Shown: in pieces, positions 9,282 through 36,849 of the stretch
Numbering within the stretch: the first letter of the stretch is position 1
Layout of the letters: each line of letters starts with the position of its first letter
Source: a virus
IMG/VR virus record: IMGVR_UViG_3300030419_003272
Location: 1 to 36,948 of that record
Strand: one strand, 5' to 3'
Length of the DNA: 36,948 bases
The notes under the pieces: generated by a model
The model's database searches: none
Told to the model about the DNA's origin: nothing
What the model saw: only the letters and a program-made list of their open reading frames with translations
Made by a program: the position numbers and the translations under genes

Positions 9282-9835
9282 TGGCTGACAGGAAACAATT
9301 CAGAACTAGTACAAAGATTGTTGGGGACACAGCTACTGAGTTTAACGACTTGTTAAACTTGTATGACTTGGAAAATCCTGATATTGAACTATTTAATCTT
9401 GTTGATGATGAGTTGATCCGTTTAGGTGGTTCTAAGATCTTACTGTATAAGTTCTATAGGAGGGAGGGTCTTTCGGATGATCTTTATGGAGAGGCGTCCC
9501 AGAAGGCTATCTCTAACACTCCTATCGTTTTACAAGGCCACTACGAGCCCCAAGCTTTAGAGGAAAATCTTACTGAGTTTGGAATTGAGGTGACTAGTGA
9601 GCAGTTGTTTACATTCAATAAGAGTTATTTGGAAAAGGTTGTAGGGCGTCCTTTGATTGCTGGTGATATTTTACAGCCGGATTTTCAAAACCTTAAGTAT
9701 GAGATTTTTGAAGTACAAGAAGATCAGTTTGATGTGTATGGTGTTTATCATTTAGTTTGTGCTGGCAGAGTCCTGCGCGATGACTCCGATATTACTAGAA
9801 CTGATGAGTCTTTCCCCCAGGATGAGGTATATTAA
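9281..9835 (+). CDS. 14: Neck protein, T4 gp14-like
   Basis: The 184-residue protein is shorter than T4 gp14 (256) but keeps blocks I associate with this family: a KFYRREGLSDDLYGE stretch (about 57-71), a FGIEVTSEQLFTFNK block, and GRPLIAGDIL followed by YEIFEVQEDQF. These resemble head-tail connector proteins with a small beta-barrel core. It is coupled to its neighbours by TAATG junctions on both sides, within a 13-14-15 unit. The role is head closure and tail attachment. Confidence 0.7.
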   Translation: MADRKQFRTSTKIVGDTATEFNDLLNLYDLENPDIELFNLVDDELIRLGGSKILLYKFYRREGLSDDLYGEASQKAISNTPIVLQGHYEPQALEENLTEFGIEVTSEQLFTFNKSYLEKVVGRPLIAGDILQPDFQNLKYEIFEVQEDQFDVYGVYHLVCAGRVLRDDSDITRTDESFPQDEVY

Positions 9836-10617
9836 TGGTTGGTGCTTTTTGGACAATTGATGATATACGGCGAGAGATTGAAGCATTAGAATCTACTAGT
9901 ACGTATCAAAAAGCAGATTTTTATCGGGACTTCACTAGGCGGTTAAAAGAACTTTTTGGTAAACTCCAAGTATTAAAAGGCGATGACACTCTTCGTGTAG
10001 TTGATATAATTTATGCTAATCCTGAGCGGGCAATAGCTAAAATAACTGAAGATAAAAACATACAACTGCCAATTCTTTCTTTGCAGTTCGCTGGAGTGGA
10101 GATAGACACTAGTCGTCGTAAACCAATGGAAGCCTTGGTGGAGAAGAAGTTTTGGTTGTCGGATGAGCAACGAGCTATTCGTTACATGGCTCCTGCGCCT
10201 GTTGCAGCTAATTTATCTTTTGCGGTGAACGTATGGGGTAAGTATGTTGAGGAGGTTAACCAACTAACTGAGCAGATTATATTAATGTTTAGGCCAAATC
10301 TGCCTGTGGACATCAGGCCAGGGGAGATTTACCAAGCTTACATTAAAGATGTGTCTGAGTCTTCTATGTTTGATGCCAGTGATAGGCAGGATAGGGTTGT
10401 AAAACGTGCTGTTAACATAGAAGTACAGTCTTATGTGCCTAGTAAAGTTTACAAGTTTACAAGTACTGGGGAGATTAAGGTAATTAATTACGAAGTTTAT
10501 ATTAAAGAAACTTCTGGTTTACAGACCCTAGAAAGCTTCCAAGCCGGTGGTGGTAGAGAATTTGCTCTTAATCAGCTTCCTAATAGAGGTGTGGGCATCA
10601 CTACTGTAACAATTTAA
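9835..10617 (+). CDS. 15: Tail terminator / sheath stabiliser, T4 gp15-like
   Basis: The 260-residue product is near the length of T4 gp15 (272) and follows the gp14-like gene with a TAATG overlap. The N-terminus GAFWTIDDIRREIEALES and an internal block around 120-160 (FAVNVWGKYVEEVNQLTEQI) fit this family, whose hexamer caps the tube and sheath and binds the neck. In T4 genes 16 and 17 (terminase) come next; here a 57-base gap and a 62-codon gene lead straight to the sheath gene, so terminase lies elsewhere. Confidence 0.72.
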   Translation: MVGAFWTIDDIRREIEALESTSTYQKADFYRDFTRRLKELFGKLQVLKGDDTLRVVDIIYANPERAIAKITEDKNIQLPILSLQFAGVEIDTSRRKPMEALVEKKFWLSDEQRAIRYMAPAPVAANLSFAVNVWGKYVEEVNQLTEQIILMFRPNLPVDIRPGEIYQAYIKDVSESSMFDASDRQDRVVKRAVNIEVQSYVPSKVYKFTSTGEIKVINYEVYIKETSGLQTLESFQAGGGREFALNQLPNRGVGITTVTI

Positions 10618-10648
10618 AAAAAAGTGGAGTGCTTGGAACGTAACCAGT

Positions 10649-10655
10649 CTAAATA
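10649..10655 (+). promoter_or_regulatory. Candidate late promoter CTAAATA before sheath unit
   Basis: CTAAATA lies in the 57-base gap before the 62-codon gene, 20 bases upstream of its start. It resembles the T4 late promoter core TATAAATA, and the window encodes a gp55-like sigma factor. Other copies occur before other genes. The assignment is inferred. Confidence 0.4.
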
Positions 10656-10674
10656 TACTTAGAGGAAAAATACA

Positions 10675-10863
10675 TTGTCTGATTTTAAAAAGATTAAAAA
10701 TACTACTCATCAGAGTTTAGAAGTTATTGCAAAGTTACCCTCTGGACAGTATAACCATATCTGGTTGGGGTCTAAGCAATCTGTGGTTATTGCTGCGGAC
10801 GCTCTTACAGACATGATTCGTGTTGCCGCTGACAGGCAAATGCTTAAAATCACAAACGCTTAA
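10675..10863 (+). CDS. Small conserved-looking protein before the sheath gene
   Basis: A 62-residue protein starting at a TTG, with Shine-Dalgarno AGAGGA at 10661-10666, eight bases upstream. The sequence looks like a small beta-rich domain with one helix, and has no membrane segment or catalytic motif. It lies 15 bases before the sheath gene and is probably co-transcribed with it. It may be a minor tail component. The family is not recognised. Confidence 0.6.
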   Translation: MSDFKKIKNTTHQSLEVIAKLPSGQYNHIWLGSKQSVVIAADALTDMIRVAADRQMLKITNA

Positions 10864-10878
10864 TAGGAGAACACAAAA

Positions 10879-13077
10879 ATGGCTGCATATGTAAGCCCCG
10901 GAGTTTATGTTATTGAGAAAGATTGGTCGGACTATACACCGTCTCTCAATTCAACAAATGTTGGCGTTATGGGTTTTGCCTCGCAGGGTCCTGTTGGAAA
11001 GGCTACACTCGTAACAAATGCTGATCAGTTAGTACAAACCTTTGGCCGTCCCGACGACGCAGAGGGTGGTTTTGGTCTAATTGGTGCATACCATATATTA
11101 GACAGGACAAACACTGTCTACTTTACACGCACAGCTACTACAGATGCTGCGGTTGCTGATGTAGCAGTACCTCTAGGAACTTGCCCTTATGTCGAGTTGT
11201 CAGGCTTAAGTCCCAATGACTATCACCTGTTTCTTGTTGATGTAAGTGGGTCAAGTTCTTCTGCTAAAAATGGAAGTCCTTTGATTTTTTCTATCCCCCC
11301 TGCCTCTGCTAACGCTACGTATGCTGCTAGTGCAGCAAAGGCTATTGAAGTAGAGGTCAATAGGATGACGACTAACTCAGCTGCTATTTCTTGGGATACA
11401 CAGAGTGCTAGTGCAGGGAATTTTGTTGGTTCTTACGCAGGTAGTGGCGCTAATGTCCAAGTTTGGGGGTGGGCTTCTGCATCAGCGTTCCCGACTATTC
11501 CGCCGGGAACTGAAGCTGCAAATATTAATTCTTTAAGCGGCTCGAATGCAGATCTCTCAGCAGTCGATGGCAACTTGACTATGGGCGCTTCCAACGGTGC
11601 AGGAGAAGCGGCTTATGCTTTAAAACCTATTGCTTCAGGGGTCACGGTTGATCCTACTAGTTTATCTGGAGGAGCTTACGTTACTAGAACTCTGTACCCA
11701 GGCGCAGGATATAACTACTCTTCTACTGTTGAGACGTATGGTCAAAAGATAACTGGACTACAAGATGTTGTGGCTGCAAATAGAGCCGCTGGATCAGTGT
11801 TTAATGTTAATAAGGGTTCTGGGGCTGAAGAATCTCATCTAGTTGAGTGTGTAGTTAACTCTACAGGAGTTGACTTGGCTCCTTCTGCTGTTATTAACAA
11901 CACGACAGATAGCACAAACAAAACCTCTGACTTTATTGTCGGGGAGTTTGCTGTGGATAACACTGCTAGGGATGATGTTTTGTGGGCGCTACCAACCTCA
12001 TGGGGCGGTGCCATGGATGATGACGGAACTGCCAACCTCGCTGTGGTCCAGGCTGATACAACTCCTTCCAGCGTTACTGTGACTGATGTCAGGTACTTGA
12101 AGTTGGTTGACGGCAAGTATAACTATGCTGGGGGAAACAATGGTGATCTTAGTGGCTCCTTGAGTTTTGATGATGCCATAGTTAGAGCGGCTGTTATTGG
12201 GAATGCAGCAGAAGGTACTGGAGTTTATTCATACCTTAAAGAAGATGTTGATATCTCTATCTTGGCAATACCAGGATGTACTGAACAAAACATCGTTAAT
12301 AATGCGATCTCTATTGCGGAAAGCTCACAAGAGTTCTTAGTTGTTACTAATCCTCCTCTTGGAATTAACTCCCCTCAAAATGCAATCGCATGGTCTAACG
12401 GAGTTGCTGAAGGTCGCACTGCTGCCTTGAATAGCTCTTATGCTTGTATTTATTGGCCATGGGTTAAGTTGTTTAACCCGTTTACTCAGGTTGATGAATA
12501 CATCTCCCCAGACATATTCGCGATACGCCAAATGGCTTTTACGGATGCTACCTTTGATGCGTGGTTCGCTCCTGCGGGTCTTGTTCGGGGTCGCCTGACC
12601 AAGCCTGTTGACGTTGAGATGGTCCTAACTCAGGGAGATAGGGATGCCTTATACGGTCCTGGTAATGTTGTTAACCCGGTCCAGAAGTTCTTAACTGAGG
12701 GCATTGTTCTTTGGGGGCAGCGCACCACGCAGAGAGTTGCGACTGCATTGGATCGAATTAATGTTCGTCGTCTTATGATTATAATTCGTAAGATGCTGTT
12801 AGCCTCTACACGCCAGTTCGTGTTTGAGCCTAATGACGCTGCAACTTGGAAGCGGGTTGAGAACGCTGTTGAGCCTCTTATGGCTGATATTAAGAGCCGA
12901 CGAGGAGTTGTAGATTTTAAGGTTATATGTGATTCGACCACTAATACACCAATTAGAATTGATAGGAATGAACTTTGGTGTAAGGTCATTCTACAGCCTA
13001 CGAAGGCTGCTGAAGTTATTGTGTTCGAACTCAACCTAACTAGTGCAACATTGGGACTTGGACTCCCAGGTAACTAA
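10879..13077 (+). CDS. 18: Contractile tail sheath protein, T4 gp18-like
   Basis: The 732-residue protein (T4 gp18 has 659) has the classic sheath N-terminus YVSPGVYVIEKD (4-15) and the conserved C-terminal domain. That domain includes DIKSRRGVVDFKV near residue 670 and a final strand-forming segment EVIVFELNLTSATLGLG. A strong Shine-Dalgarno AGGAGA (10864-10869) precedes the ATG. The central region (about 90-430) is Ala/Gly/Ser/Thr-rich and probably forms the variable outer domain, which accounts for the extra length. The protein contracts around the tube during infection. The tube gene follows 30 bases later. Confidence 0.93.
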   Translation: MAAYVSPGVYVIEKDWSDYTPSLNSTNVGVMGFASQGPVGKATLVTNADQLVQTFGRPDDAEGGFGLIGAYHILDRTNTVYFTRTATTDAAVADVAVPLGTCPYVELSGLSPNDYHLFLVDVSGSSSSAKNGSPLIFSIPPASANATYAASAAKAIEVEVNRMTTNSAAISWDTQSASAGNFVGSYAGSGANVQVWGWASASAFPTIPPGTEAANINSLSGSNADLSAVDGNLTMGASNGAGEAAYALKPIASGVTVDPTSLSGGAYVTRTLYPGAGYNYSSTVETYGQKITGLQDVVAANRAAGSVFNVNKGSGAEESHLVECVVNSTGVDLAPSAVINNTTDSTNKTSDFIVGEFAVDNTARDDVLWALPTSWGGAMDDDGTANLAVVQADTTPSSVTVTDVRYLKLVDGKYNYAGGNNGDLSGSLSFDDAIVRAAVIGNAAEGTGVYSYLKEDVDISILAIPGCTEQNIVNNAISIAESSQEFLVVTNPPLGINSPQNAIAWSNGVAEGRTAALNSSYACIYWPWVKLFNPFTQVDEYISPDIFAIRQMAFTDATFDAWFAPAGLVRGRLTKPVDVEMVLTQGDRDALYGPGNVVNPVQKFLTEGIVLWGQRTTQRVATALDRINVRRLMIIIRKMLLASTRQFVFEPNDAATWKRVENAVEPLMADIKSRRGVVDFKVICDSTTNTPIRIDRNELWCKVILQPTKAAEVIVFELNLTSATLGLGLPGN

Positions 13078-17759: not shown

Positions 17760-18734
17760 ATGAATCTAGACGAAATTGTAAAAAGTTTTGAAAAAGCTGA
17801 AAATATTCATGTGGAAGAGGTAGGCTCTGAGCCTATTTTGTTCATTCATGATTCTTGCGTAAAGCAAAGAGGGGATATTTACGCATTTAAAGATGATGAG
17901 TATGGCGTTTTGATGCGTTTGCTTGGTAAGACTAAGTTACCGGAAGAAGAGTATCAGTTTGTTGCCGCAATCCAGCAGTTGGGGGTCAGTGAAAAAGATG
18001 TTACCACGGAGATTATTCAACAGAACCGGGAACCCCTTGAGAAAAAAGTAAAGCAGGCTGAGCCTAAGTTGATCTATGTGTTGGGCAACCTAGCTATGAA
18101 AACTTTACTTAGGAAGTCAGGAATCTCTAACAAAAGGGGTAAGGAATTTTGGATTGACATAGATGGCATGGAAATCCCGGTAGTTCCTGTATATCACCCT
18201 TTTTCTTTATACTCTGAGCCTAAACTTCGCGGCTTATTCATCCAGGATATTAATAATGCTTATGATAAGTTTATTTTGAAGCGAAATAAGTTAGCTGAGT
18301 CTGATTATGAGCTTTGCAATGAGGTTGATTCAGCTTTAGAGAAACTACGTCATGCTGCAACTAAGCCTTTTGTTTCGGTAGATATTGAAACCACTGGTCT
18401 TGATTTTAAGAAAGATAAAATTACAAGTATTGGGTTTGCTACGGGCGAATTAGAAGCCTTTGTAATTCCTCTTTATCATAGAGAATCTAACTTATCTCCT
18501 GGTGATATTGATAAGGTTTGTGACGCAGTCAGTGCTATCATGGGGAACGAATCAATAGGAAAAGTTTTTCATAACTGTAAGTTTGATTTAAAGTTTTTAA
18601 GGAATTGGGGTGTTCCTGTTTTTAGAAATATTCATGATACCCAAATTATGCATGCTTTGGTGGATGAAAATAAACCACACGGTCTTATGGATATCGTAAA
18701 AGAGTATTGGCCTCATGAGCTAGAGGAGTTTTAA
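17760..18734 (+). CDS. PolI N-terminal half: UDG-like domain plus 3'-5' exonuclease motifs I and II
   Basis: The 324-residue protein has two parts. Residues about 20-170 resemble the family 4 uracil-DNA glycosylase fold (LGNLAMKTLL at 108-117, RGKEF, VPVYHPFSLY at 142-151) but lack the GExPG catalytic block and iron-sulphur cysteines, so probably no glycosylase activity. Such domains are known at the N-terminus of some phage PolI enzymes. Residues about 200-324 are a DEDD exonuclease: Exo I DIETTGL (Asp208, Glu210) and Exo II FHNCKFDLKF (Asp276). The protein then stops at HELEEF. The Exo III motif and the whole polymerase domain are in the gene at 22467, 3.7 kb downstream. The two products are expected to associate; this is not shown by the sequence. 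Confidence 0.85.
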   Translation: MNLDEIVKSFEKAENIHVEEVGSEPILFIHDSCVKQRGDIYAFKDDEYGVLMRLLGKTKLPEEEYQFVAAIQQLGVSEKDVTTEIIQQNREPLEKKVKQAEPKLIYVLGNLAMKTLLRKSGISNKRGKEFWIDIDGMEIPVVPVYHPFSLYSEPKLRGLFIQDINNAYDKFILKRNKLAESDYELCNEVDSALEKLRHAATKPFVSVDIETTGLDFKKDKITSIGFATGELEAFVIPLYHRESNLSPGDIDKVCDAVSAIMGNESIGKVFHNCKFDLKFLRNWGVPVFRNIHDTQIMHALVDENKPHGLMDIVKEYWPHELEEF

Positions 18735-22466: not shown

Positions 22467-23996
22467 ATGCTGACTGTAAATAAAAGTAAATCTAAGGGTG
22501 CGGATTTTTGGGCCACGCTACCCTTAGATGATCTTGCGTTTGGTAACGCAATGGATTGCGATTTTACCCTACGCGCTTTTTCTGTTCTTCAAGACGAAAT
22601 GCAACGTAAAAGTGTTAATCACGTTTACGATAATCTATTGAAGGATATTCTAGTTATTCTTGGGATGGTTGAGAACCAGGGTATTCTGGTTGATTCCGAT
22701 TACCTGGAGGTGCTGGATAAACAACTGCGTGATGAGCTAGACTCCTTGAGTGAGAAGTTACAGGAGTTGGCACCTACTGATGAGACAGTGAACCCAAATT
22801 CTACTGCTGAGATGGGTTCATTGCTGTTTACTTCGGATGGGTTTGATCTGACTCCAACAATGTTTTCAGATAAGACCAAGATGCCACAGATTAGTGACGA
22901 CCACTTGTCTGAGGTCTTAAAAACTACAAAAGATAAGAAGGCCATAGAGTTTATTCAAACTCTATTAAAGTACAAGTATAGAACTAAACAGCACAAGACT
23001 TATGTTAAGGGGGTCAAGGCCGCGCTTTCATATAATGAAGACGGCAGGATTTATTCCCAGTATAACTTCGCGACGGTAGTTACTGGACGATTATCTTGTT
23101 CCACATACTCTGTGGGTAAAGAAAAGAAGGGAGTTTCTTTTCATACATTACCTAGAGAGTCTGATGATGATCCTGTAAATATTAGGAAGTTAATGAGTGC
23201 AGATGAAGATAGAGCGTTTCTTGCTGCGGACTTCTCTCAAGCTGAACTAAGAGTTCTTGCACAGTGCTGCAAGGATAAAAATTTGATCAAGGCGTTCAAC
23301 TCAGGGCAGGATCTCCATAGATTCACAGCATCTCTCGTCTTTGGTAAAAAAGCAGAAGATGTAACGAAAGAGGAACGTCAAATTGCTAAGTCTGTTAGCT
23401 TCCTTATTGTTTATGGGGGCGGGGCGAACAAGCTCGCCCAGCAGATAGGGAAAAGTATAAACTACTGCAAAAATATATTTAAGGCATACGAGAATTCGTT
23501 TCCTAAAGTTTTTGGTTGGATTAAGAGAGTCCATAAAATGATTAAGGAAAATGGGTATGCAGTTAGTTTATTTGGTCGGAGGAGGCACCTACCTAATATA
23601 AAGAGCCCTGTTAAGAAGTATCAGTTCCGAGCACTGCGGCAAGGCATGAACTTCGTTATCCAAAGCTCTGCTTCTGACTTGATGCTGCACTCTATAAAGA
23701 GACTTCATCGTTACCGTGATTTAACCGGATTGGATTTTGATATCCTTGCAACGGTGCATGATTCTGTTGAGGTTCAGTGCGCTAAGAAAGATGTTGAAAA
23801 AGTAGCAACTCTTTTAAAATTAGTGCTGCCTATGACGGATGATTTCGAGAAAATGTATGGCATTAAATTTGTTGTTCCTTTTGAAGTAGATGTAGAAGTT
23901 GGCACTTCGTTTGGTCATTTAATTGGGGCTGATTTCTCCGATAAAGGAAGTTTAATTAATGGCGATGAAGTTCAATCATTCTTCGAAAATGCATAG
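22467..23996 (+). CDS. Family A DNA polymerase, C-terminal half (Exo III plus polymerase domain)
   Basis: The 509-residue protein starts inside the exonuclease domain. AFGNAMDCDFTLRAF (24-38) matches the Exo III block, with Asp30 conserved, but the catalytic Tyr four residues before it is Gly26. The polymerase domain is complete: motif A AADFSQAELR with Asp255, motif B RQIAKSVSFLIVYGGG with Lys308, Phe312 and Tyr316, and motif C VHDSVEV with His431 and Asp432, where Ser433 replaces the usual Glu. Phe312 matches E. coli Phe762, so strong discrimination against dideoxynucleotides is expected. The upstream half is at 17760-18734. This gene's end overlaps gp47 by 38 bases. Shine-Dalgarno is weak. 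Confidence 0.92.
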   Translation: MLTVNKSKSKGADFWATLPLDDLAFGNAMDCDFTLRAFSVLQDEMQRKSVNHVYDNLLKDILVILGMVENQGILVDSDYLEVLDKQLRDELDSLSEKLQELAPTDETVNPNSTAEMGSLLFTSDGFDLTPTMFSDKTKMPQISDDHLSEVLKTTKDKKAIEFIQTLLKYKYRTKQHKTYVKGVKAALSYNEDGRIYSQYNFATVVTGRLSCSTYSVGKEKKGVSFHTLPRESDDDPVNIRKLMSADEDRAFLAADFSQAELRVLAQCCKDKNLIKAFNSGQDLHRFTASLVFGKKAEDVTKEERQIAKSVSFLIVYGGGANKLAQQIGKSINYCKNIFKAYENSFPKVFGWIKRVHKMIKENGYAVSLFGRRRHLPNIKSPVKKYQFRALRQGMNFVIQSSASDLMLHSIKRLHRYRDLTGLDFDILATVHDSVEVQCAKKDVEKVATLLKLVLPMTDDFEKMYGIKFVVPFEVDVEVGTSFGHLIGADFSDKGSLINGDEVQSFFENA

Positions 23997-30530: not shown

Positions 30531-31160
30531 ATGGCATCCCCCAGATTTAGTGTAATAGTACCTCATTATCAAGGGTCTGTAACTCATAAAGATTTTCTTC
30601 GAGGTATTGATAGCCTTAAGGCTCAGACATTTCAAGATTTTGAAATTTTATGTTATCATGATGGACCTTTGTTGGAAGATAAGAAGTTACCTATTGATGT
30701 GGTTTGTACCAATAAAAGGTATAATGATTGGGGGCATTCTTTGAGGGATATAGGGATTCGGCGGGCTAAAGGGGAGTACATTATTCACTTTAATCCTGAT
30801 AACATATTATACGAAAACGCTTTAGAAGTTTTGAGCAACCATACTGACCCTATTATTATTTTTCAACTGAAGATGAAGGGTTTTATTGAATTTCATATGA
30901 ATGGGAAGCACTTTAGAGGTTATGATTATCTGGATGAGGAAAAAACTAAAAGAAATTATAGTACTTCAGTTGTTTTGACGGGGGAGCCCCCCGTTTGGGG
31001 AAATATAGATGCTATGCAACTTGTAATGAAGCGTAAGAAATGGTTAAAGTATGGGGGGTGGTATGACAAAAGGAAGACTAGCGACGGGTATATGTATCAG
31101 CGTTTTTGCAAAGATACTCCTCCGCGATATGTACGTGTTGTTCTAGGAGAGCATTACTAA
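30531..31160 (+). CDS. Family 2 glycosyltransferase
   Basis: The 209-residue protein has a GT-A fold of family GT2. It opens FSVIVPHYQGS (6-16), continues SLKAQTFQDFEILCYHDG (28-45), then RAKGEYIIHFNPDN with the DxD-like metal site around Asn88-Asp90. It lacks a membrane anchor and is shorter than many GT2 enzymes. It is the first of three consecutive sugar-transfer genes. Possible substrates are phage DNA bases, virion proteins or host surface glycans; the sequence does not tell. The stop overlaps the next start. Translation start is odd because the terminator ends three bases before it. Confidence 0.82.
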   Translation: MASPRFSVIVPHYQGSVTHKDFLRGIDSLKAQTFQDFEILCYHDGPLLEDKKLPIDVVCTNKRYNDWGHSLRDIGIRRAKGEYIIHFNPDNILYENALEVLSNHTDPIIIFQLKMKGFIEFHMNGKHFRGYDYLDEEKTKRNYSTSVVLTGEPPVWGNIDAMQLVMKRKKWLKYGGWYDKRKTSDGYMYQRFCKDTPPRYVRVVLGEHY

Positions 31161-32374
31161 TGAAGAAGAAACTAAAAATCTTAGCCTGTCCGGCCAATGA
31201 GGGTGGTTGTGCCTACTATAGAGTTATATTGCCTGCTAACAAACTACAGCAACTCCACCCGGATGAAGTAGAGGTGCGGTTGGACCTAAACCCTCTCGGG
31301 TGGGATAAGGAAGAGATGGAACGCCAACAAAAGAAACCCTTAATTCTTCCAGAGTATACAGGGGAAAACTTAGAGTGGGCGGATGTTGTATTTCATCAAA
31401 ATATTCATAACTTTGGAGGAGAGTATACTTTTGAGCTTATGAGACGGGCTGCGGAGATGAATAAGCTAACGCATTATGATAATGATGACTTGGTCACTGA
31501 CTTGTACCAAGGGCACAGGTTACATGGTACGTATGAGCACCATAAGCTAGGAGACTTAGTAAAACAAATTTATTCGTTTGTTGATATTGTATCTGTGACT
31601 CAACGTAAGTTTGCAGAACGTATTGCTCCTTATGTTGGTCGTGCGTTAGTGATAATAAAAAATGCCATTGATTATGACTTAGATTGCTGGAATCAACCTA
31701 AGCTGCCTGCCCCAAGAAAAGGAAAAACTTGTCGTGTTGGATGGGTAGGAGGGATTCATCATGAGGAAGATGTAAAGGAGTTTCCTGGGGTTGCAATGGT
31801 TGTGAATTCTCGTGTGGGTCCTGAGAATATTCATTGGGGTTGGTACGGCAGACCTCCTATGCCGATGAAAGATGGGAAACCTGACCCGGATTGGCAGCAA
31901 GATGTGTGGGATAATTACCAAAAGTACTTATCTAAAGGGATAAGGCATAAGAATTTCCAAGTATACCCCGCCTTACCTGCTGAACATTACGGTAAGATGT
32001 ACACTAATATTGATCTTGCGATAGCTCCCCTTCAGTTTAATAACTTCAACGATTCTAAGTCTGAGATCAAGGTTGCGGAGTGTGGTAGGTATGGAGTACC
32101 TCTTATCGCCACAAACTGTGGGTGTTATGATGAAACCATTGTTAACGGCGAGACTGGCTATCTGATCGACCCAGAAAATTCTGTTAGTGAGTGGGTATCG
32201 CGTATTTCAAAAGTAGTTAAGGATCGTAAGCATCGTGAGGAGATGGGTCGTAACCTTAAAGCAATCACGGATAAACACTTTGATATTAACAAGAATGTTT
32301 ATGGGCGCGTAGAATTGTATAATGAAGTTCTAAATGCGAAAAGCCAGGCGCTTATATCTAAAAACCCTAACTAA
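31160..32374 (+). CDS. GT-B glycosyltransferase (GT4/GT1-like)
   Basis: I choose the ATG at 31160 (404 residues), ten bases after AGGAG (31145-31149) and overlapping the previous stop. The N-terminus ILACPANEGGCAYYRVILPANKL has the Gly-rich acceptor-domain loop. The C-terminal domain has SEIKVAECGRYGVPLIATN and then NGETGYLIDP, the usual nucleotide-sugar-binding block of GT-B retaining enzymes, although the classic E-x7-E reads E...E with a small change. The central segment DVVFHQNIHN and the NNFNDSK before the block are consistent. Part of the three-gene sugar cluster. Confidence 0.82.
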   Translation: MKKKLKILACPANEGGCAYYRVILPANKLQQLHPDEVEVRLDLNPLGWDKEEMERQQKKPLILPEYTGENLEWADVVFHQNIHNFGGEYTFELMRRAAEMNKLTHYDNDDLVTDLYQGHRLHGTYEHHKLGDLVKQIYSFVDIVSVTQRKFAERIAPYVGRALVIIKNAIDYDLDCWNQPKLPAPRKGKTCRVGWVGGIHHEEDVKEFPGVAMVVNSRVGPENIHWGWYGRPPMPMKDGKPDPDWQQDVWDNYQKYLSKGIRHKNFQVYPALPAEHYGKMYTNIDLAIAPLQFNNFNDSKSEIKVAECGRYGVPLIATNCGCYDETIVNGETGYLIDPENSVSEWVSRISKVVKDRKHREEMGRNLKAITDKHFDINKNVYGRVELYNEVLNAKSQALISKNPN

Positions 32375-32378
32375 TCAT

Positions 32379-33446
32379 ATGAATAACAAACAAGAAGAAA
32401 TTGCTAAAAGAGAGCTTGCTAAATTTAGGGGAGGTGGTGACCCTCCCCAGATAAAACAAGCTGTATACGGCACCAAGGAACAGTTTGTTGATGTTAGTGA
32501 TATTCTTAGACTTCAGCTAGTATCTAATGGAAAGGTACATGTTCGTTCCGGTAATAAGTTAAGAGGAGACCCTGATCCCGGTAAGATAAAAAGTTTAAGG
32601 GTTGTCATGCAAGATGAAGAGTTTGAAATTAGAGAAGGTAAATGGTTTGTATGGCCTAAAGATGAAGGTATAAACCACCTAGTTATTTTTTATTCTCATG
32701 TGGATCCACAGGCAGATAGGCGACAAGGTGAGCTTGTTTCGTATTGTTTGAATCATTTATTAGATACTATACCGGACAATGCTGTTGTTCGAGGAGGCTT
32801 AATTCACCCATATCCAATACATAACCCTAAATTTTATAACTATGAGCCTATGTATCGGGAAGGTAATGGTCATGCGATGATTATGCAGCAAATCTATAGG
32901 ACGTTACTTGCTGCTCGAAACGAAGGGCTTACATCGCTTAAATATGTTTCATTTGCAGAGCATGATACCTTATACCCTGCTAGTCATTTTCAGTTCAAGG
33001 ATTTTGAAGAGGACCTTCTCGTAAATGCTAATCACATTGGTTTTACGCAAGATGGGTTTCAGAAACCACAGGAGAACGAAACGTGGCCTACGTTTTCAAT
33101 GACGATGAAGTATGATTTTGCGATTGAATACTTTAGAAACAGGATTGAGTGCTATTTTGAAGACCCGACGTCGTTCGGTCTTATTGAGCCTACGACAGAA
33201 TCTTGGTTCAAAACCATCAGCAGGTGGACTGAGATGACGCGAAAAGGGTTGACCTGTACGCATAAAGTTAGAAAAACAGAAGAGCCAATTCTACATCTGT
33301 GGAATGGATTTCATAGCACAAGCCATTACCGAACATACCCGAAAGACGAATATCTAAAGCATAATGCTTACTGGGGTGATGCTCAACAACTTGCTAAAGC
33401 CTATTATGGAGATTGGCTACCTTCAATTCCAAAAATCCCAGACTAA
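32379..33446 (+). CDS. GT-A-like glycosyltransferase with N-terminal beta domain
   Basis: I choose the ATG at 32379 (355 residues) over one inside the previous gene. Neither has a clear Shine-Dalgarno. Residues about 25-95 (AVYGTKEQFVDVSDILRL, then GDPDPGKIKSLRVVM) resemble a small beta domain, reminiscent of DnaJ C-terminal-like DUF3395, that often accompanies bacterial glycosyltransferases. The rest (about 110-355) has HLVIFYSHVDPQ, then AARNEGLTSLKYVSFAEHDTLYP with a DxD-like site (EHD), followed by aromatic-rich segments. A sugar transferase is likely from this pattern and from its two neighbours, but the family is not certain. Confidence 0.6.
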   Translation: MNNKQEEIAKRELAKFRGGGDPPQIKQAVYGTKEQFVDVSDILRLQLVSNGKVHVRSGNKLRGDPDPGKIKSLRVVMQDEEFEIREGKWFVWPKDEGINHLVIFYSHVDPQADRRQGELVSYCLNHLLDTIPDNAVVRGGLIHPYPIHNPKFYNYEPMYREGNGHAMIMQQIYRTLLAARNEGLTSLKYVSFAEHDTLYPASHFQFKDFEEDLLVNANHIGFTQDGFQKPQENETWPTFSMTMKYDFAIEYFRNRIECYFEDPTSFGLIEPTTESWFKTISRWTEMTRKGLTCTHKVRKTEEPILHLWNGFHSTSHYRTYPKDEYLKHNAYWGDAQQLAKAYYGDWLPSIPKIPD

Positions 33447-33564: not shown

Positions 33565-34533
33565 ATGAGCTTCCTTGATGATATTTGCAAGCGTCTAGAT
33601 GGCGCTGCCCTTCTGTCCGAAGAGGACCAGATACATGGGTTTGTGGACTCTGGTTCCTATGCTCTTAACAAAGTACTTTCTGGTAAGTATACAGGTGGGT
33701 ATCCCATCGGGGCTATTACAGAAATCTATGGGGAGAGTAGTACTGCAAAAACTGTGTTTTTAACCCATGCCTTTGTGGGGGCTCAGGCTAGGGGTTACTA
33801 CACGGTAATGATTGATAATGAACATGCATACTCCCCTAGCTTTGCTAAGACTCTGGGAGTGGACCCGGATAAGCTAATTTACCTCATGCCAGAAACCATG
33901 GAGGAGTGTTTTTTGGCCATTGAGAATGTTATTAGAGTTATTAGGGAAAAAGATAAGGACACCCCTATCCTTATAGGATATGATTCTATTGGAGTGTCCC
34001 CTACTAAGAAAGAAATGGATGATGATTTCGGAAAGAACTCCGAGATGGCGGGAGCTTTGCGTGCGAAAGTTGCAGGGCAATGTTTGCGCAGGATCAACCC
34101 ACTTCTTCGAAGGCATAAAGCAGCGTTGCTGATTATAAATCAGGTCCGTAGTAAAGTAGGGGTTATGTTCGGCGACCCCAGGACCAAGGCTGGAGGAGGG
34201 AAGGCTCTTTTGTATTATTGCGGGGTTTCCATTGAAACTTCTTCAAACAAGAGTGATGTTATTTATGATGACATAAAAAACCCTATAGGTATAAAAGGTT
34301 CCATTAAGTGTGTAAAGAACAAGGTGACAGTCCCTTACCAAGATTGTGAGTTTAAGTTATTGTATGATAAAGGTCTTGAAAATCACTACGGGCTTACTAC
34401 ATACGCTTACAAAAAGGGTCAGGTTACCTCCCCCGCAAAAGGGTGGTATTCCTTAGACGGGGAGTCTAAGATACGTGCAGCTGGGATGAACACTGTTTTA
34501 GCCGAGAAAATAATGTCTGGTGAGTTAGAGTAA
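33565..34533 (+). CDS. uvsX: RecA-family recombinase, T4 UvsX-like
   Basis: The 322-residue protein (T4 UvsX: 391) is a RecA-fold strand-exchange ATPase. Its Walker A reads GESSTAKT (56-63), with Ala in place of the usual Gly before Lys62; T4 UvsX also departs from consensus here. It has YTVMIDNEHAYSPSFA (about 77-92), Walker B-like PILIGYDSIGVSP, a RRHKAALLIINQVRSK block with the DNA-binding L2 region (VMFGDPRTKAGGGKALLYY) and a typical C-terminal segment. It works with SSB, the UvsY-like protein and gp46/47 in repair and recombination-driven replication. The stop overlaps the next start (TAATG). Confidence 0.92.
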   Translation: MSFLDDICKRLDGAALLSEEDQIHGFVDSGSYALNKVLSGKYTGGYPIGAITEIYGESSTAKTVFLTHAFVGAQARGYYTVMIDNEHAYSPSFAKTLGVDPDKLIYLMPETMEECFLAIENVIRVIREKDKDTPILIGYDSIGVSPTKKEMDDDFGKNSEMAGALRAKVAGQCLRRINPLLRRHKAALLIINQVRSKVGVMFGDPRTKAGGGKALLYYCGVSIETSSNKSDVIYDDIKNPIGIKGSIKCVKNKVTVPYQDCEFKLLYDKGLENHYGLTTYAYKKGQVTSPAKGWYSLDGESKIRAAGMNTVLAEKIMSGELE

Positions 34534-34862
34534 TGGCACATGAACTTGGCGAGCTACTGGGGAATGTTGTAGGGTGTCTTATCCTAGCTGCTCCTTGGGT
34601 TATTTTGGGTGGTATCATCCTGATTCCAATTTTAAGTTTTTTCTCTGCATTATCATGGTTTAAACTTCTTTGGCTTTTATTTAATCGTTCCACGGTGGCT
34701 CAATCGGTAGAGCATTCGGCTGTTAACCGAACGGTTGTAGGTTCAAGTCCTACTCGTGGAGCCACTTTAAAGAAAACCCCTAAAAAGAAAGTTTCTGAGA
34801 CTCCGATTGTTTCAGATTATAGGGACGAATTTAATTTGCCGGAAAGTCCTTTTACTGACTAA
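34533..34862 (+). CDS. Small membrane protein ORF that reads through a tRNA gene
   Basis: The start is joined to the uvsX stop by TAATG. Residues about 9-50 are hydrophobic and give one or two membrane helices (VVGCLILAAPWVILGGIILI, then ALSWFKLLWLLF). Residues about 52-78 (RSTVAQSVEHSAVNRTVVG...) are the translation of tRNA-Asn in this frame, a pattern well known from false proteins over tRNA genes. The tail (about 79-109) is Lys- then Asp/Glu-containing and looks like ordinary protein. Either a short membrane protein continues through the tRNA gene, or the frame is open by chance and the real product is not made. No homologue recognised. Confidence 0.45.
   Translation: MAHELGELLGNVVGCLILAAPWVILGGIILIPILSFFSALSWFKLLWLLFNRSTVAQSVEHSAVNRTVVGSSPTRGATLKKTPKKKVSETPIVSDYRDEFNLPESPFTD
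34689..34764 (+). tRNA. tRNA-Asn (anticodon GUU), CCA encoded
   Basis: A 76-base cloverleaf is visible. The acceptor stem TCCACGG (34689-34695) pairs with TCGTGGA (34754-34760). The anticodon stem TTCGG/CCGAA carries loop CTGTTAA with anticodon GTT at 34722-34724. The T-stem GTAGG/CCTAC carries loop TTCAAGT, and the D-arm has GGCTCAATCGGTAGAGC. The discriminator is G and the 3' CCA (34762-34764) is encoded. It is the only tRNA I find. The phage uses many Asn codons. Confidence 0.95.
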
Positions 34863-34881: not shown

Positions 34882-35301
34882 ATGGTAAACATATTTCATG
34901 GATGGGGTTTGAATTTAGATGAGAAGAAGCATGCTGGGTTCAAGGAGGAAGATGCAGAAGGTAAAAAAGCTGAGTTTGACCCTCGTAAAACTCGTATCCC
35001 TTCTTTTGATACTATTGCGGATGCTTTGAGTAAAACTTCTTATGGTCAGATTTTTACTACTCCAAAGTCTTCAAATATTTATGTTATTACTAGAGGTACT
35101 TGGGGAGAGAAATCAAAGGATAAGGTTGTTAAAAGTTTCCCGGCAGGCACCCCTTACACTGAAATTAAGTCTTACTCTGACCGTACTAAATCAAAACATG
35201 GCGGCAAGGCCATAAAGAAGGGCGAAAAGGGTCGAGAGGAAGCTGGGTTTGCTACTAAGGATAAAAAGGATAAGGCTAAGAACTTTAAGCCTGTAGATTA
35301 A
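34882..35301 (+). CDS. Small basic protein of unknown function
   Basis: I choose the ATG at 34882 (139 residues), after AGAGG at 34870-34874; a longer frame starts upstream over the tRNA-linked ORF without a ribosome site. The N-terminal half has a folded look (NIFHGWGLNLDE, PSFDTIADALSKTSYGQIF, NIYVITRG), and the C-terminal 50 residues are Lys-, Gly- and Glu-rich. No recognised domain or membrane segment. Its stop overlaps the next start (TAATG), so it is expressed with the 111-codon gene and probably the unfoldase gene. Confidence 0.6.
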   Translation: MVNIFHGWGLNLDEKKHAGFKEEDAEGKKAEFDPRKTRIPSFDTIADALSKTSYGQIFTTPKSSNIYVITRGTWGEKSKDKVVKSFPAGTPYTEIKSYSDRTKSKHGGKAIKKGEKGREEAGFATKDKKDKAKNFKPVD

Positions 35302-35636
35302 TGGTTAGGAATTACATACCAAAGAAACGTTTTTTTGAAGCCCCTAGAATCCACAAGATTGCTAAGGATATTCTTACTGATTGCAAGGAGGATAGGGGTC
35401 GTGCATTAGAAACATTTGAGTATTTTAAAAATCTTGTAACTGCTAATCCTGAGGATGATAAAGCTAAAGCTGAAATGATACATGCGTTGGGACTTTCACA
35501 AGACGCGAACGATAAGATTGTGAAAGTTTTAGACATGATGATAAAGATGACTCAAAATGAACAGAGGCTGGAACAAGCCAGTACCCCTGTAAAAGCAGAA
35601 TCTCTTTCCTTTGAAGACTTAAGAAAAAATGGTTAA
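35301..35636 (+). CDS. Small helical protein of unknown function
   Basis: The 111-residue product starts with a basic segment (VRNYIPKKRFF) and then is mainly helical, with ETFEYFKNLV and KVLDMMIKMTQ as likely amphipathic helices. No recognised domain. It is coupled to both neighbours: TAATG upstream, and an eight-base overlap with the AAA+ gene downstream. A partner or adaptor of the unfoldase, or a small terminase-like protein, would fit size and location, but the sequence supports neither directly. Confidence 0.55.
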   Translation: MVRNYIPKKRFFEAPRIHKIAKDILTDCKEDRGRALETFEYFKNLVTANPEDDKAKAEMIHALGLSQDANDKIVKVLDMMIKMTQNEQRLEQASTPVKAESLSFEDLRKNG

Positions 35637-36849
35637 ACACGATGCTTATGTTGTTTATAGCCCTGCTCTCGATGAATTTGTTCGTATAAAAAAATTCTCT
35701 GAGCTTGAGCTAGGTACTTTAATCAATGATTTAGGCACCCTTATAAATAAGCCCGGTGCTAAAATAAGTGAATATGTTAAAGAGGTCATTCGTAAGTGCA
35801 TTGAAGATTATGCACGTTATGATCTTGCTGCGAACATAGAATGTTTGTATGAATGTGTTACGGAAGTATTCCCTCTTCTTCAAATAGAGTTTGTTTGTAA
35901 GACAGTTAATGAATTGTCTGATGAGCCCTCTGAACAGAAAAAAACCGCTGCCGACAGCCGCTCAACTTTAGCTGAGATTGTAAGCCTTACCAATAAGATT
36001 AAAAAGAATCTTATTGGGCAAGATGAGGCTGTTGATGAATGTACGAAATCCATTAAGTTGATTAGTTCGGGACTTGATAAGTTCATCTCGTTGTTCTTTA
36101 TTGGACCTACAGGCGTAGGTAAAACAGAACTAGCCCGTCTACTTGCTAGAGAATACCTTGGAAGTTCGAAAAGCCTATTAAAGATTAACTGTGGGGAATA
36201 TGCCACAGGGCATGAGTATGCCAAACTGATCGGGAGCCCCCCAGGGTATGTTGGGCATAATGAAAAGGGCATTCTATCTGAAAAAGCGGAACAATCATCT
36301 AAATGGATTATTCTTTTTGATGAGATAGAAAAAGCTCATCCCAAGCTTATGAACCTATTGTTAGGGTTCCTTGACGATGGAAAGCTTGTTGATAGCCGTG
36401 GGGTAGAACTTGATTTTTCAGATTCTATTATTTGCTTTACGAGTAACATCGGAATTAAGAACAATGTGGGTAAAAAGTTAGTTGGGTTTGGGAATGAAGT
36501 TCGGTCTTATGACGCCTCTAGGGATGATATAACCGAAGAGTTTAGGAATCATTTTAATCCTGAGTTCATCAATAGACTTGATTCTGTTATCTATTTTAAT
36601 CAGCTAACTGAAGACGATGCGGCAAAAATTACGAGGCTGTATTTGAAGAAGTTACCTATAAAAACAACAAAAAAACTTGTAGATTTTGTAGTGGCCGGGT
36701 CATTCTCTCCTGAGTATGGAGCTAGAAATATTAATAGGTTCATCCGCAACAATATTACTATAAAAATTGCCGATAGAATCTTGCAGGATGGGGATGGAAA
36801 GACCTATAAAGCCGTGTTTAAAAACAATGAGTTAAGTTCTGTAGTATAA
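35629..36849 (+). CDS. Single-ring AAA+ unfoldase, ClpC/ClpA D2-like, with VGF loop
   Basis: The 406-residue protein has a novel-looking N-terminal domain (about 1-110, helical) and one AAA+ module of the Clp/Hsp100 D2 type. The module has GQDEAVDE, Walker A GPTGVGKT (159-166), the pore loop PPGYVG with Tyr207, Walker B LFDEIEKAHP (Asp231, Glu232), sensor TSNIG, PEFINRLD with the Arg finger, and sensor 2 YGARNINR. Between TSNIG and PEFINR it has LVGFGNEV. Val285-Gly286-Phe287 sits where ClpC and ClpA carry the ClpP-docking tripeptide; ClpB lacks this loop. The protein could thus unfold substrates and feed host ClpP. Hsp100 proteins usually have a second ATPase domain, absent here. Confidence 0.85.
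   Translation: MVKHDAYVVYSPALDEFVRIKKFSELELGTLINDLGTLINKPGAKISEYVKEVIRKCIEDYARYDLAANIECLYECVTEVFPLLQIEFVCKTVNELSDEPSEQKKTAADSRSTLAEIVSLTNKIKKNLIGQDEAVDECTKSIKLISSGLDKFISLFFIGPTGVGKTELARLLAREYLGSSKSLLKINCGEYATGHEYAKLIGSPPGYVGHNEKGILSEKAEQSSKWIILFDEIEKAHPKLMNLLLGFLDDGKLVDSRGVELDFSDSIICFTSNIGIKNNVGKKLVGFGNEVRSYDASRDDITEEFRNHFNPEFINRLDSVIYFNQLTEDDAAKITRLYLKKLPIKTTKKLVDFVVAGSFSPEYGARNINRFIRNNITIKIADRILQDGDGKTYKAVFKNNELSSVV

Follow-up and report, generated by a model that had tools for sequence, protein, structure and literature searches.

The IMG/VR record IMGVR_UViG_3300030419_003272 was analyzed over its entire length (36,948 bases, referred to here as the window). The source phage is T4-like, and the window encodes T4-like structural proteins (i.e., a gp21-type head maturation protease, gp23, and neck, tail sheath, and tube proteins) together with proteins for replication and recombination (i.e., DNA polymerase, a DnaB-like helicase, a gp32-type SSB, and UvsX). 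Among the matches listed, its major capsid protein shares at most about 33% identity with cyanophage gp23, and a megablast search for the nearest isolated phages returned no matches for the right part of the window. The final gene on the contig encodes a Clp-like ATPase and is preceded by UvsX, a stretch with a tRNA gene, and two small genes (Table 1).

Several other features of the window are recorded here. DNA polymerase is apparently encoded in two genes (17760-18734 and 22467-23996, + strand), which match positions 482-785 and then 802-1241 of phrog_17 and are separated by a 334-aa ORF, a thymidylate synthase gene, and a 659-aa ORF without a match. Gene order gp15-gp16-gp17 is usual in T4-like phages; here (9835-10879, + strand) it is broken, with a gp15-type sheath stabilizer gene followed by the tail sheath gene and neither a small nor a large terminase gene recognized between the two. 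Just 5' of UvsX lie two glycosyltransferase-like genes and a 370-aa gene without a match (30531-33446, + strand). Immediately 3' of UvsX, a tRNA-Asn (GTT) gene (34689-34764) sits within a 109-aa ORF (34533-34862, + strand), the C-terminal half of which is tRNA read-through and the N-terminal half of which resembles membrane segments; of the tRNA gene and the ORF, perhaps just one is genuine.

Table 1. Features at the right end of the window; residue conservation was counted across 39 aligned ATPase relatives
Feature	Position	Strand	Remarks
UvsX-like recombinase	33565..34533	+	Usual upstream neighbor of the ATPase family
139-aa protein	34882..35301	+	Restricted to the window's subclade (6 loci)
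111-aa obligate partner, predicted helical hairpin with short C-terminal motif	35301..35636	+	
Predicted single-ring Hsp100/Clp D2-type AAA+ unfoldase	35629..36849	+	406 aa, ATG start
N-domain, predicted beta hairpin and four helices	35629..35922	+	Residues 1-98; conserved in 39 relatives
AAA+ large subdomain	35965..36603	+	About residues 113-325
Walker A, GPTGVGKT	36103..36126	+	Residues 159-166; K165 and T166 invariant
Pore loop, GYVG	36244..36255	+	Residues 206-209; Tyr207 in 37/39, Phe in 2/39
Walker B, LFDE	36313..36324	+	Residues 229-232; D231 and E232 invariant
Sensor 1, TSN	36439..36447	+	Residues 271-273; invariant
Putative ClpP-docking tripeptide, V-G-F	36481..36489	+	Residues 285-287; Phe287 in 39/39, Gly286 in 36/39
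Candidate Arg finger, Arg316 (NRLD from 315)	36574..36576	+	Invariant
D2-small subdomain with sensor 2 Arg366	36604..36846	+	Arg366 invariant

The ATPase consists of an N-terminal domain without a family match (about residues 1-98), a low-confidence linker, one AAA_2 domain (Pfam, residues 151-319; 137.8 bits against a cutoff of 27), and one ClpB_D2-small domain (PF10431, residues 336-388; 39.1 bits against a cutoff of 21.9). The Pfam scan detected neither Clp_N nor a second AAA domain, in agreement with the original prediction of a phage single-ring Hsp100. The Hsp100/Clp AAA+ signature residues are present (i.e., Walker A and B, sensor 1, Arg finger, sensor 2, and the pore aromatic), and the pore Tyr207 and both Walker motifs are intact, as had been proposed. 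The best match among PDB sequences was the D2 domain of Staphylococcus aureus ClpC (2e-59). Among NCBIfam models, ClpA ranked first (1.5e-66, 225 bits) and ClpB was a close second (8.7e-66); ClpX scored 22.8 bits against a cutoff of 359, and the AAA+ core is thus not of the ClpX type. An AlphaFold2 model built from the 39-sequence alignment (pLDDT 88.4, pTM 0.69) found its top structural match in ClpC within a ClpC-ClpP model (Z 30.8 across 296 residues), with other ClpC, ClpA, ClpB, and Hsp104 D2 domains a few Z units below. Because these scores differ little, ClpC and ClpB are not separable by fold alone; the tripeptide described below separates them. ClpA and ClpC have two AAA+ rings, whereas the 406 aa here contain a single AAA domain, and ClpB combines two rings and a middle domain with the absence of a ClpP tripeptide, whereas this protein has one ring and carries the tripeptide. 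Judged by its sequence, the product of 35629-36849 is a Clp/Hsp100 D2-type AAA+ motor without a D1 ring.

The D1 ring and the usual Clp N-domain are both missing, as originally suggested, but residues 1-98 form a different, conserved domain in their place. Its structure was predicted confidently (pLDDT mostly 88-96), and no match was found in Pfam, PHROGs, or PDB sequences. When the N-domains of 39 family members were scanned on their own, none matched Clp_N, which sets them apart from ClpA and ClpC. Identity with T4 gp26/gp51 (the baseplate chaperone, PF12322) was considered and is a lead at most: no consistent answer came from sequence searches of Pfam, PHROGs, and PDB, the hhalign comparison with PF12322 was weak (P 0.03-0.07), and a profile search of T4 for the N-domain found nothing. 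PF12322 is present in two ATPase-family records, 36-41 kb distant.

Among the 80 loci returned by a scan of viral contigs, L001-L049 encode single-ring relatives; those of full length measure 405-473 aa. A maximum likelihood tree built from 61 D2 domains placed the phage proteins with a single ring in one group (support 100/100, stem 1.01); bacterial proteins and the longer large-phage Clp proteins fell outside it. When bacterial and archaeal genomes were scanned, the matches in the best 80 loci were essentially confined to the AAA part. The searched collection of isolated phages contained no credible full-length relatives: the full-coverage tblastn matches were two unannotated Staphylococcus-labeled records (30% identity), both probably bacterial contamination, and two other family members used as queries gave no match covering 80%. 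A 488-aa metagenomic protein in BFVD, labeled "AAA domain containing," matches the ATPase lengthwise at 26% identity. As far as these sequences tell, the ATPase family, which is carried by a group of uncultured T4-like phages, is a single phage-only clade.

The V-G-F tripeptide reported at residues 285-287 is present and lines up with the docking tripeptide of S. aureus ClpC D2. Across the 39 aligned ATPases (20 clusters at 70% identity), position 286 is Gly in 36 and Ser in 3, and position 285 is exclusively Val, Leu, or Met. The remaining positions of the loop (276-296) have a median entropy of 2.55 bits, i.e., the loop drifts around a conserved Gly and Phe. A wider set, which includes ATPases reached through searches with the partner gene, yielded 79 distinct loops: VGF (44), LGF (23), MGF (8), LSF (3), and VGY (1). 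The conservation in relatives on which the original prediction was staked is therefore seen, with 75 of the 79 loops reading [VLM]GF. LSF occurs in L034, L038, and L047 and VGY in L184 as natural variants. The ClpP-docking motif of Clp ATPases has been published as (L/I/V)-G-(F/L) (PMC8745299); the Val and Leu variants agree with it, whereas Met in the first position (8/79 loops) falls outside. Controls of the ClpC, ClpE, and ClpA types carry the tripeptide (IGL in E. coli ClpA) and E. coli ClpB and other ClpB-type controls lack it, although a few rows of this comparison were misread by crude patterns (e.g., cyanobacterial ClpC loops cut short and chance ASF or VGL hits in ClpB-type rows). The claim that the loop resembles that of ClpC/ClpA rather than a shorter ClpB loop holds for the aligned tripeptide; as for length, the span from sensor 1 to the Arg-finger region is 47 aa here, 41 in both E. 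coli ClpB and E. coli ClpA, and 43-56 in most ClpC-type proteins. It is thus the tripeptide, and not length alone, that distinguishes the ClpP-binding types. Model confidence falls over residues 281-290 (mean pLDDT 69), which fits a mobile loop. Conservation of the loop in the alignment is far above chance expectation and supports the view that a ClpP-docking tripeptide is under selection throughout a diverse, phage-only family.

Two small genes upstream had been put forward as possible adaptors, and they fared differently: the 111-aa gene is a strict partner of the ATPase, whereas the 139-aa gene is limited to one subclade. The 3' end of the partner gene overlaps the ATPase start by 8 nt, suggesting translational coupling. 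In each of the 46 loci for which upstream DNA is present, the partner lies immediately 5' of the ATPase; conversely, all 80 partner loci recovered in a reverse search (single-sequence queries with three different partner sequences, with some contigs common to the first locus set) have the ATPase directly downstream, at an offset of -6 to +8 nt. The predicted structure is a helical hairpin followed by a short C-terminal helix (pLDDT 82), and an F..L..L-type C-terminal motif is retained in the family. Family libraries contained no credible match, and UvsY, considered as a possible identity, was not among the 25 most frequent families listed in a Pfam scan of 41 members. A structure search did not identify the fold, returning generic helical hairpins whose best Z scores of about 10 are too low to be meaningful for helical proteins. 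The partner may be an adaptor or a substrate of the ATPase.

A weak profile match hints at another identity, namely a displaced small terminase (T4 gp16-like), in which case the pair would act in packaging the DNA or in regulating that step, whether or not ClpP is involved. Comparison with a T4-like gp16 profile gave P values of 0.0043-0.0059 and a colinear alignment of 79-90 columns that includes the C-terminal F..EL motif; the score (23.0) exceeded the maximum from 100 column shuffles (17.1), and among 49 families of these phages the partner had the lowest P value. Neither PF11053 nor the gp16 profile detected a gp16 in the searched records, two of which measure about 130 kb, and none was apparent immediately upstream of the large terminase gene in four records inspected. 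Against this, the hhalign probability is just 6-8%, two families outrank the partner by raw score, Pfam found no credible PF11053 match in it, the large terminase gene is 31-71 kb away from the pair in each of the four compared records, and the partner profile found no match in T4-like genomes. We treat this identity as a lead that is rather unlikely to hold. Because it concerns the partner only and fits either of the main readings of the ATPase discussed below, the likelihoods that we assign overlap and need not sum to one.

These features are most economically read as a phage-specific, single-ring Clp unfoldase that feeds substrates to borrowed host ClpP, which we consider probable. Such a motor would have its origin in the D2 ring of an Hsp100 of the ClpC/ClpA type and would most likely assemble as a hexamer; its [VLM]GF loops would seat in the hydrophobic pockets of ClpP, and substrates, chosen by its own N-domain and probably by the upstream-encoded partner as well, would be drawn through the Tyr207 pore and passed into the protease. 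Several points count against ClpP as the destination: the ClpB models nearly equal ClpA on the AAA core, ClpC and ClpB chains differ little in structural Z score, LSF and VGY loops occur, and Met285 lies outside the published motif. The genomic distribution of ClpP itself is consistent with borrowing. PF00574 (ClpP) had no match in 42 records that encode this ATPase, the two longest of which (129,906 and 130,604 bases) come from closely related phages, whereas the same search detected it in 12 of the 14 genomes used as controls and in three of the five large-phage records that carry longer Clp proteins. Because the records may be fragments and ClpP could lie elsewhere in the genomes, this absence is supportive at most. 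Three records of large phages (L054, L059, and L076 from G027, G029, and G030, respectively) combine longer Clp ATPases (667-818 aa) with their own ClpP, so that motor and protease are both phage-borne there.

The main rival to use of host ClpP is a ClpP-independent remodeler, i.e., a single-ring unfoldase that dismantles a phage complex (the partner, a terminase, or a recombination complex) and uses the loop for another contact. The obligate partner could be its substrate, UvsX commonly adjoins the pair, the LSF and VGY loops would be accommodated, and there are single-ring D2-type Hsp100s that work without ClpP, such as human CLPB with its ankyrin repeats (PMC9934407). We nevertheless judge this improbable, given that strong conservation in a drifting loop is limited to the Gly and Phe of the ClpP tripeptide and that the motif is missing from ClpB-type proteins, which work without ClpP. 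A phage ring that merely caps host ClpP and thereby blocks ClpXP/ClpAP degradation of phage proteins would require docking alone, and the tripeptide is indeed the best-conserved part of the loop; such a decoy is very improbable, however, as Walker A/B, sensor 1, Arg316, and Arg366 are invariant and a pore aromatic is present in 39/39, all needless in a passive cap. That the gene is the degenerating remnant of a ClpC gene recently acquired from a host, as the missing D1 ring and Clp N-domain might suggest, can practically be dismissed in view of the monophyletic phage clade (100/100, stem 1.01) and of about 40 diverse full-length relatives with their own conserved N-domain.

Taken with its partner, the predicted ClpP-dependent unfoldase could form a two-gene module in which a phage-only single-ring motor and its obligate small partner (an adaptor or a relocated small terminase) steer host ClpP toward targets linked, for example, with packaging or recombination during the phage cycle; we offer this extension tentatively, as somewhat doubtful in its full form. 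If host ClpP is indeed the destination, the phage would supply specificity and motor, the host would supply the protease, and the phage could aim the protein-disposal machine of its host at chosen targets. Such an ATPase would, moreover, provide a naturally occurring minimal Clp motor, of about 400 aa and one ring, with which to probe the purpose of D1, and the LSF and VGY variants would be ready controls for that question.

Each component has a precedent: ClpX partners ClpP as a single ring, Skd3 is an Hsp100 with one D2-type ring, and Clp proteins occur in large phages. Phage-encoded ClpP, ClpS-type adaptors, and two-ring Clp ATPases are already known. In open-access papers, we found no description of a single-ring unfoldase that derives from D2, is confined to phages, and retains a ClpP hook. 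The phage ATPase resembles ClpC and ClpA in its D2 AAA+ core, small domain, pore GYVG, and ClpP tripeptide in the matching place, but lacks their D1 ring and Clp_N, has its own N-domain, and falls in a distinct clade of the D2 tree. With ClpX it shares a working plan of a single AAA+ ring with an (L/I/V)-G-F loop, but it lies outside the ClpX lineage (22.8 bits for the NCBIfam ClpX model versus 225 for ClpA), and Pfam reported no ClpX-type zinc-binding N-domain in it. The mitochondrial CLPB/Skd3 is not known to carry a ClpP tripeptide. Its single D2-type ring is likewise joined to an unrelated N-domain (PDB matches 7ttr and 7us2), which consists of ankyrin repeats there and is phage specific here; Skd3 is a disaggregase with ankyrin repeats (PMC9934407). 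Jumbo phages encode ClpA, ClpX, ClpP, and ClpS (PMC7824862), and a phage-encoded ClpP has been described (PMC5964084). The large-phage Clp homologs of phrog_4871, the best PHROG match of the window ATPase (4e-78), are also phage-encoded Clp ATPases with IGF-type loops, but they are longer (667-831 aa), match the ClpA/ClpB models over most of their length, and are accompanied by ClpP in three of the five records. What is new at this locus is the combination of a D2-derived single ring, a ClpP tripeptide, a phage-specific N-domain, and an obligate small partner in a phage-only clade.
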